Shown here: piece by piece, positions 101 through 3,436 of the stretch
How the letters are laid out: each line of letters begins with the position of its first letter
How positions within the stretch are numbered: position 1 is the stretch's first letter
Assembly: GCA_007693855.1 (NCBI GenBank)
Contig: RECU01000034.1
Location: 1-64,000 of the forward strand
Direction: 5' to 3'
DNA length: 64,000 nt
From: Gammaproteobacteria bacterium
GTDB lineage: Bacteria > Pseudomonadota > Gammaproteobacteria > Steroidobacterales > PWYM01
Made by a program: the position numbers and the translations under genes
Notes under the pieces: generated by a model
Told to the model about the DNA's origin: nothing
The model's input: only the letters and a program-made list of their open reading frames with translations
The model's database searches: none

Positions 101-1268
101 GATCTCCACGATCTACTACGTCGGCAGCCTGTAAGAGCGCGAAACCGCAGGCTCCACCACCACCCACCGCCATCACCTCTACGCGGGCGGCCAGGCCATC
201 GGGCAGCTCAAGCGCACCCAGGCGGGCGCCAACAGCTTCGAGTACTTCCACCGCGACCACCAGGGCTCGGTGACCAAGGTGACCAACGGCTCGGGCACGG
301 TCGTCCAGTCGCTGAGCTTTGATGCGTTCGGCAAACGCAGGAATGCCGACTGGAGTGCCGACACCGCCGGCAACCGGTTCAACGACACCCACTTCACCAA
401 GCAGGGCTACACCGGGCACGAGCACCTGGACAACGTGCGCCTGATCCACATGAACGGGCGGGTGCAGGATCCCACGCTGGGGCGGTTCATTAGCCCCGAT
501 CCGTTCGTGCCCGATCCAAGGCGATCCCAGGCGTTCGACCGGTTCGGCTACGTCTACAACAATCCATTGGCTCACACCGACTCCAGCGGTTACTTTCCCG
601 AGCCGCTACGCCGACACTTTGACTCTTTCGAGTTCTTTGATCGATTCGGCGGCTTCGACCCTGGAAGAACAGGCGAGATCGTGGTGACCCGGCGACGGCC
701 TGGGCCGTATCAGGGATTCGCCGATCTGCCTCTCGGGTTCGAGCGTTTCGTGGACATGACTTCCGGGATCGAAGTCTACACGCGACCGCCCAACGACGAT
801 GAGGTAAGCACCAGACCAGTCTCTGCATCCCGCGATGGGCTGGTCGTGAGGCCCGCTACTCATCGGGCATTGCCAAATCGTCGGGCATCGCTCAATCGTC
901 GGGCCAGTCACTTTGCTCCGCGTATGCTCGGTAGCGGTGCTGACTTCTACTATACTGAGAACTGGCGCTCCGTTCCCGCGGAACTCCGAGATCGTTCAGA
1001 CCGAGAGGCACTAGTCGCCGTCGTATACGCGTCCGGAGTCCCTGTCGCCATTGGGGCTGTGGGTCAGGCGTTTGCGGTTCCCGCGATTCGGCAAGTTGCG
1101 TTCGAGCTCACGATTGAGCTCGCCGGTGTTGTTCTGTCGGCAACACAACCGATGCCGGACGCGCTGATTCGTCCGCATGCCGCCACACCACCTGTCATGG
1201 ACCCTCGAAGGTACAGTATGCCCCTCAGAAACATGCCGATTCCCCCAAAGGGAGTGGCTGTACCCTGA
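3..1268 (+). pseudogene. RHS-repeat polymorphic toxin, C-terminal part, interrupted by an in-frame stop
   Basis: Frame 3 enters from the window edge and encodes the end of an RHS/YD-repeat protein, a class of large exported toxins with a variable C-terminal effector. The RHS-associated core signature is clear downstream of 270 (NGRVQDPTLGRFISPDP, then YVYNNPLAHTDSSGYF). The frame is closed by TAA at 132-134, where the flanking residues (GSL*ERETAG) suggest an original Tyr; after it the same frame stays open to 1268. Homology is therefore continuous across the stop, which argues for a nonsense mutation rather than two genes. An ATG at 270 could in principle start a 332-residue orphan fragment, but I see no good ribosome site for it. 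The 5' part of the gene lies outside the window. Confidence 0.85.
606..1265 (+). other. Variable C-terminal tip of the RHS protein, candidate toxin domain of unknown type
   Basis: After the conserved DSSGYFPEP junction the protein stops looking like RHS and continues for about 220 residues that I do not recognise. The first part is Arg-, Phe- and Pro-rich with EIVVTRRRPG near its start; a short internal duplication (NRRAS, twice) lies around 875-910. The last third holds about 45 mostly small and hydrophobic residues (roughly 1008-1142) rich in Val and Ala, followed by a Pro/Met-rich tail. No nuclease, deaminase or ADP-ribosyltransferase motif is visible. By position this is where RHS proteins carry their effector; a membrane-acting toxin is an inference from the hydrophobic stretch and from the membrane protein encoded next door. 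Confidence 0.5.
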
Positions 1269-1288
1269 TACCCAACAAAGAGGGGTCC

Positions 1289-1615
1289 GTGAGAGCTCGC
1301 CCGAGGCCCCGTCATTGGAGCGCAATTTTGAGTCGTTCGGATTCGACCAGACCGTGGTGGTATCGTCTCCCTACCTGGGAATGGCAGGAAGGTCTGAAGA
1401 TTCACGGCAATATGTTCTTGAGTTGTTTTCTGTTGTGGCTTTTTTCTGCATGGTTCGTTTTCGATTTTTCGTGGACCCCGCTGATGTGGGGGTTAACGAT
1501 AGTCTTGGGAGCGGGTTCACTGTACGCGTTATGGTTGGCCGTGATTGCATTTGCGGCGGTACTCTTGCATCACCGCGACCGTCGTCAAGGGTCGTATCGG
1601 GAGTTCTGGGACTAG
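1289..1615 (+). CDS. Small two-helix membrane protein, putative immunity protein for the RHS tip
   Basis: A 108-residue protein begins at a GTG 20 bp after the RHS stop, with AGAGGGG just upstream as ribosome site. The N-terminal 40 residues are basic and Trp-rich (five Trp). Two hydrophobic segments follow at about residues 41-60 and 65-93, and the tail is charged, so it is probably an inner-membrane protein. I do not recognise the family. Small genes placed directly behind an RHS tip usually encode the cognate immunity protein, and membrane immunity proteins usually accompany membrane-acting toxins; both points are inference from position. By hand count 1381-1500 is about 45% GC, far below the roughly 70% of nearby genes, as expected for exchanged cargo. 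Confidence 0.5.
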   Translation: MRARPRPRHWSAILSRSDSTRPWWYRLPTWEWQEGLKIHGNMFLSCFLLWLFSAWFVFDFSWTPLMWGLTIVLGAGSLYALWLAVIAFAAVLLHHRDRRQGSYREFWD

Positions 1616-2209: not shown

Positions 2210-3436
2210 ATGGCGCTGGACGCGCGCCTCGTCGCCGCGGTGAAAACCATTCGCGTCCTCGGCTCGCTGAGCTGGCCGCAGTCTGCCCAGGCGTCGTTCC
2301 TGCAGGCCTATCGGGCCGGCCGCCCGCGCCTGCCGGCGCCGCAGTATCGGCGCCCGGACTACCACGCCGAGGTGGCCGAGCTCGAAGCCATCATCACCGC
2401 CTGCCCGGATGATCATCCGATTGGGGCGTTTGTATCGGCGACCGCGCGCTCCTATGTCCTGGTCTGCCGCCTGCTGCAGCATGCCGGCAGCGCGCGCATG
2501 ACACCGTTTTCGATCGAGCTCTACGGCCGGCCTGGGGATCCGCTGCCCGGCGGGCGCGTCACCAACGTGGATGCGGCCCGGCACTTCATCGAGGTCAGCC
2601 GCGGCTATGTGCACGTCGCTCCCCACAGCGGCGATCCGGTGATCTCGCCAGAGGCGCTGGCGGCGGTGCTGCGCGAGCGAATGGCCGAGGTCTTCACCGG
2701 GCATGAGGTCAACGTGGTGGTCGATCCGGCGCTGGTCTCGCGGGCGGCAGCGGGAGCGACGCGCATCCGGCTGCGCGGTGGCATCGACTTCCACACCAGC
2801 GATATCGAGCAGCTGCTCCAGCATGAAGCCTTCGTGCACTGTCTCACCGCGCTCAACGGGCGCGAGCAGTCGCGGTTTCGCAGCCTGGGTCTCGGTGCGC
2901 CGCGCACCACGGGCATGCAGGAGGGGCTGGCCACCTTCGCCGAGCTGATCTCCGGGGCCATCGACCTGACGCGGCTGGAGCGCATTGCCTTGCGCATCCT
3001 CGCCATCCAGCAGGCGCTCGATGGCGCGGACTTCATCGAGATTTTCCGCTTTTTCGTCACCGCGGGGCAAAGCGAATCGGAGAGCTTCCGTTCGGCGATG
3101 CGCGTCTTCCGTGGTGCGCCGCTCACCGGCGGGTATGCCTTCACCAAGGACACCGTCTACCTGCACGGCTTGATGGAAGTGCACACCTTCCTGCGCTGGT
3201 GCCTGCGCCACCAGCGCATGAATCTGGCCCGCTACCTGCTGGCCGGGCGCATGACCATCGACGACGTGCTGCAACTCGCGCCGCTGTTCGAGGACGGTAC
3301 GCTCGATGCACCGCGCTACCTGCCGCCCTGGCTGTCGCGTGGTAGTACGCTGGCCGGCTATCTGGCCTTCGCGGTATTCGCCAACAACATCCGGCTGGCC
3401 GAGTTGCCGGCGGATCACCCGTTTCCGGGCGACTGA
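2210..3436 (+). CDS. QEGLA-motif (DUF1704/TIGR02421) metallopeptidase-like protein
   Basis: The 408-residue protein carries the signature of the family once called flavohemoglobin expression-modulating QEGLA proteins: HEAFVHCLTALNGREQ followed by MQEGLATFAE. The HExxxH helix and downstream Glu look like zinc ligands. Eukaryotic relatives (MATCAP/KIAA0895 type) are reported as tubulin carboxypeptidases, so a metallopeptidase role is plausible; the bacterial substrate is unknown. No signal peptide is seen. The start is uncertain: the ATG at 2210 has no strong ribosome site and the frame is open further upstream without another ATG or GTG. A GTG at 2112 lies in a different frame that closes at 2185. 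The gene borders the RHS remnant but has the high GC of the core genome. Confidence 0.8.
   Translation: MALDARLVAAVKTIRVLGSLSWPQSAQASFLQAYRAGRPRLPAPQYRRPDYHAEVAELEAIITACPDDHPIGAFVSATARSYVLVCRLLQHAGSARMTPFSIELYGRPGDPLPGGRVTNVDAARHFIEVSRGYVHVAPHSGDPVISPEALAAVLRERMAEVFTGHEVNVVVDPALVSRAAAGATRIRLRGGIDFHTSDIEQLLQHEAFVHCLTALNGREQSRFRSLGLGAPRTTGMQEGLATFAELISGAIDLTRLERIALRILAIQQALDGADFIEIFRFFVTAGQSESESFRSAMRVFRGAPLTGGYAFTKDTVYLHGLMEVHTFLRWCLRHQRMNLARYLLAGRMTIDDVLQLAPLFEDGTLDAPRYLPPWLSRGSTLAGYLAFAVFANNIRLAELPADHPFPGD

Follow-up and report, generated by a model that had tools for sequence, protein, structure and literature searches.

Here, we found that a 64,000-nucleotide stretch of gammaproteobacterial DNA (hereafter the window) begins with the last part of an RHS core, followed by a toxin-like tip and a gene for a small membrane protein, and that the latter two are well supported, by position and architecture, as a toxin tip/immunity pair. 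At a probability of about 0.5, our best reading of this pair is that of a membrane-depolarising tip with a hairpin immunity protein, which, by analogy, would act in the manner of Tse5/Tsi5 or of the CDI ionophores. The module as a whole is probably a horizontally acquired and displaced tip/immunity cassette that is in the course of decay.

The window starts with base 1 of its contig (C87 of genome G000, an assembly of 3.28 Mb and about 100% completeness), and the contig itself starts inside the RHS core. Translation of the plus strand, on which all features described here lie, gives a 5′ part of the core (3–134), which is truncated at the contig end and runs into an in-frame TAA at 132–134, i.e. 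upstream of the tip frame. An open RHS frame follows from 135 to 1268, which comprises the C-terminal part of the core (135–596) and then the tip. The core end matches the Rhs_assc_core profile TIGR03696 with 48–51 bits against a cut-off of 32.5 and ends in TDSSGYF, so that the junction to the variable tip is the DSSGYF motif with its last base at 596. The missing N-terminus of the RHS protein may lie inside an assembly gap, and the stop at 132–134 may have arisen in sequencing or assembly. Another contig of the same genome opens with a 55-base copy of this core stretch (C2:1–55), which reads through at the position of the TAA. Thus, at least two versions of the core exist or existed in this genome, or the assembly collapsed them. 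The frame, the DSSGYF junction, the tip of about 220 residues, the gap of 20 bp and the 108-codon reading frame behind it, all described in an earlier note on this DNA, were reproduced by coordinates and translation; the TAA at 132–134 and the contig end at base 1 are additions to that note.

The tip spans 597–1268 (223 residues at 597–1265, with the stop extending to 1268). Its codon usage is atypical, as is that of the small gene, with the given frame scoring best of the three in both, clearly for the tip and by a small margin for the small gene; the GC content is 0.61 for the tip, 0.54 for the small gene and 0.65–0.70 in the surroundings. The hydrophobic stretch of about 45 residues that the earlier note had pointed out could be located at tip residues 138–182 (1008–1142), and its mean hydropathy over 45 residues was reached in none of 5,000 composition-preserving permutations. 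It is preceded by 137 Arg/Pro-rich residues without confident structure and followed by about 40 residues. The single-sequence AlphaFold model of the tip, in which we also looked for the five-helix bundle of CDI ionophores, has a pLDDT of only 34 and is too poor for a fold search. A pattern search for the glycine zipper G-x3-G-x3-G found none in the tip, and the libraries and collections searched held no homologue or fold in support of pore formation.

The small gene begins 20 bp behind the tip with a GTG at 1289, directly preceded by the purine-rich, ribosome-binding-like sequence AAAGAGGGG, and ends at 1615. Its 108-residue product carries five Trp within the first 41 residues and two membrane segments by the Kyte-Doolittle scale, which start at residues 42 and 75. 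Eight Lys/Arg residues lie in the N-terminal 41 residues, four in the C-terminal 15 and none in the loop, a distribution that is consistent with a hairpin with both termini inside. Single-sequence AlphaFold predicted two long helices (29–60 and 64–107) at a pLDDT of 71. The two membrane helices and the Trp-rich N-terminus had both been noted before. The protein is thus predicted to be small, hydrophobic, two-helical and cytoplasmic at both ends, as hairpin immunity proteins are, with 108 residues being slightly above their range of 72–100. We consider it to be probably the immunity protein against the tip toxin.

Are there relatives of either protein from which a function could be read? Neither the tip nor the small protein matched any profile in the Pfam, NCBIfam, PHROGs and PADLOC libraries (for the tip, none in Pfam or NCBIfam up to E = 10), and both had only chance matches among PDB sequences. 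Matches to KLH hemocyanin (E 0.04), KCNQ1 and ribosomal L4 were judged to be chance. In partly overlapping genome collections (59 + 369 + 396 genomes for the tip, 369 + 396 for the small protein), we obtained weak matches only and no relative. On inspection, the weak tip matches at three loci (L043, L044 and L175) turned out to be a PurL-like enzyme, a transporter region and an unrelated frame, and those of the small protein were judged chance from their E-values and inside stops. The viral contigs, plasmids and phages searched likewise held no relative of either. A scan of genome contigs returned 17 RHS cores, all with unrelated tips; a match at one locus (L011) that extended beyond the core (34% to residue 164) was put down to chance in that part. 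In line with the earlier note, the tip matched no nuclease class and no other profile in these libraries, and the small gene was found in the searched genomes, plasmids, phages and viral contigs neither without an RHS tip nor with one.

Downstream of the pair lies a further RHS core fragment, which is decayed and has no tip (1690–2030, edges approximate), and in which positions 1892–1991 are 86% identical to positions 1–100. The right edge of the RHS DNA falls within 2059–2209. Two genomes of the same genus are homologous to the window from 2059 (G002) and from 2206 (G003) onwards; the former is colinear from 2059 on without RHS DNA (85.6% by blastn over 2059–2489 against locus L180). In both genomes (loci L180 and L181), the gene corresponding to 2210–3436 is preceded by a divergent SlyD/FKBP-like gene. 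Since their homology stops short of the RHS DNA, the latter was apparently inserted here. In the source genome, Rhs_assc_core has a single match, the one in the window, a complete RHS gene was not found in the assembly, and a lone, short and decayed RHS scrap (VIQSLSFDTFDKR) lies on a further contig (C16:1308–1353). PF05943 (TssC/VipB, the T6SS sheath), the one family by which T6SS machinery was probed, gave no match in this about 100% complete genome, with a positive control in E. coli. The stop at 132–134, the second broken core, the sole core match, the lack of a TssC match, the empty site in the two related genomes and the lower GC content together point to a displaced or decaying module. 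From the lack of a complete RHS gene and of a TssC match, we infer that this copy is no longer delivered. To speak of an active RHS effector thus goes too far, given the in-frame stop upstream, an assembly with core fragments alone and no TssC match.

Is a membrane protein behind an RHS tip a sign of a membrane-acting toxin? We surveyed 102 RHS tips and their respective downstream genes; most came from genomes of the same order. A relative among the other tips was found for 23 of the 102, leaving 77% without one. A multi-TM protein followed 26 tips and a soluble protein 54, where single assignments may be wrong since junctions were defined by pattern and neighbours classed by a Kyte-Doolittle rule. 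Pfam matched one of the 26 tips with a multi-TM neighbour and at most 8 of the 54 with a soluble one; most tips being unmatched, the lack of a match is the norm and no sign of novelty. The single match among the 26 was DUF4225, and neither Pfam nor NCBIfam placed any of them in a family of enzymatic toxins. A strong hydrophobic segment was present in 6 of 26 tips before multi-TM neighbours compared to 7 of 76 before others (odds ratio 3.0, one-sided p 0.07; rank test p 0.07), and a soluble protein follows 7 of the 13 tips that are strongly hydrophobic. The earlier premise that membrane immunity usually pairs with a membrane-acting toxin is thus only weakly supported by this proxy across the 102 related loci (odds ratio 2.5–3, p 0.05–0.07). 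Two related RHS loci (L151 and L156) have a TM-like segment about 180–200 residues into a tip of 223–244 residues and, 25–37 bp behind it, a three-helix membrane protein, and are better candidates than the window for the study of membrane-acting RHS tips. At three others (L010, L015 and L147), tips that are hydrophobic in their C-terminal half are directly followed by membrane proteins of two to four helices.

The earlier interpretation is partly supported: a pore-forming or depolarising effector remains the leading hypothesis, with a hairpin partner of the shape found in Tse5 and CDI-ionophore immunity. We propose that a polymorphic-toxin cassette, consisting of the RHS core end, tip and immunity gene, was gained horizontally and displaced, and that its tip would target the inner membrane of a competing bacterium, where insertion of the hydrophobic C-terminal stretch would dissipate the membrane potential. 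In the producer, the hairpin of 108 residues would reside in the inner membrane, both of its ends facing the cytoplasm, and would obstruct the toxin helices once these have inserted. We infer toxicity, membrane target and immunity from the order of core, tip and small gene with its 20-bp gap, the hydrophobic stretch, the two-helix partner and the charge pattern. Rather unlikely, to our judgement, is a tip that acts enzymatically or otherwise on the envelope, with a periplasmic or a lipid/cell-wall target, in which the hydrophobic stretch would serve for translocation or anchoring, and the membrane protein would shield the target or the toxin instead of plugging a pore. Such an action would fit the 20 of 26 tips before multi-TM neighbours that lack a strong TM-like segment, and also DUF4225, the sole family matched among those tips, which lyses from the periplasm (PMC9765294). 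However, the short segment behind the stretch and the Arg/Pro-rich part before it leave little room for a recognisable enzyme.

That both genes are by now non-functional, and their hydrophobic segments mere leftovers of a dead remnant, we consider unlikely, even though the in-frame stop, the two broken core pieces, the RHS scrap on C16 and the lack of a TssC match would all fit such a state, as would a tip frame whose sole start codons are internal ones (e.g. GTG 270) and the fact that no promoter-like site was found. Against it, the tip and the 108-residue reading frame are intact, the small gene retains its ribosome-binding-like sequence and hydrophobic pattern, and displaced RHS/CDI orphan modules elsewhere can be retained for immunity or recombination. 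It is very improbable that the small reading frame is not an immunity gene, or no gene at all. Its codon score is barely above that of the overlapping +2 frame (−0.183 versus −0.245) and it has no homologue, but a chance reading frame of at least 100 residues with two such TM segments at that place arose in only 0.04% of shuffles, its start is preceded by a purine-rich sequence, and its place behind the tip is that of an immunity gene.

If the depolarising reading is true, a known and very diverse kind gains a further unnamed toxin/immunity pair. The pair in the window is probably an unrecognised polymorphic RHS tip with membrane immunity, in a displaced and non-delivered state, of a kind that is itself already known. 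It is possible, albeit doubtful, that the pair is the first of a new sequence family, in which membrane-depolarising toxins are carried by RHS proteins and countered by Trp-rich hairpins, and that a genome lacking T6SS has retained it as an orphan immunity module. The calibration gained here may be of more use: most RHS tips in this bacterial order match no named family, and about a quarter of the RHS tips precede a multi-helix membrane protein, so that membrane-acting tips may be under-recognised.

In comparison with known systems, the window shares with displaced (orphan) RHS/CDI modules the arrangement of a core fragment, tip and immunity gene beside a second core fragment, and differs from them in that the assembly holds no intact main RHS gene as a source, so that displacement from one cannot be shown. 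DUF4225 toxins are tips of RHS or other polymorphic toxins, some of them beside a small TM protein, and lyse cells by an unknown mechanism that is unlike that of a membrane-disrupting control (PMC9765294); the family was found at one related survey locus, and the tip in the window does not match it. In all CDI ionophore groups of E. coli, immunity is conferred by two-helix hairpins, and these CdiI proteins have 72–100 residues, are very hydrophobic and very polymorphic in sequence, and have both termini in the cytoplasm (PMC11630599). CDI ionophores (the CdiA-CT EC93 class) are delivered by CdiA and not by RHS proteins, have a glycine zipper in common that is absent from our tip, and show no sequence match to the pair; their CdiI and the small protein share the predicted hairpin shape and the charge pattern. 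Tse5 of Pseudomonas aeruginosa is an RHS effector and pore-former whose C-terminal part (Tse5-CT) depolarises the inner membrane, and its partner Tsi5 has two predicted TM regions (PMC9637101). Whereas Tse5 is a full-length T6SS effector with a PAAR-like N-terminus that associates with VgrG4, and the module described here has a core fragment alone, no TssC match in its genome and no sequence match to Tse5, in both systems the RHS core ends in a hydrophobic tip, and the protein encoded next is small, with two membrane helices predicted.
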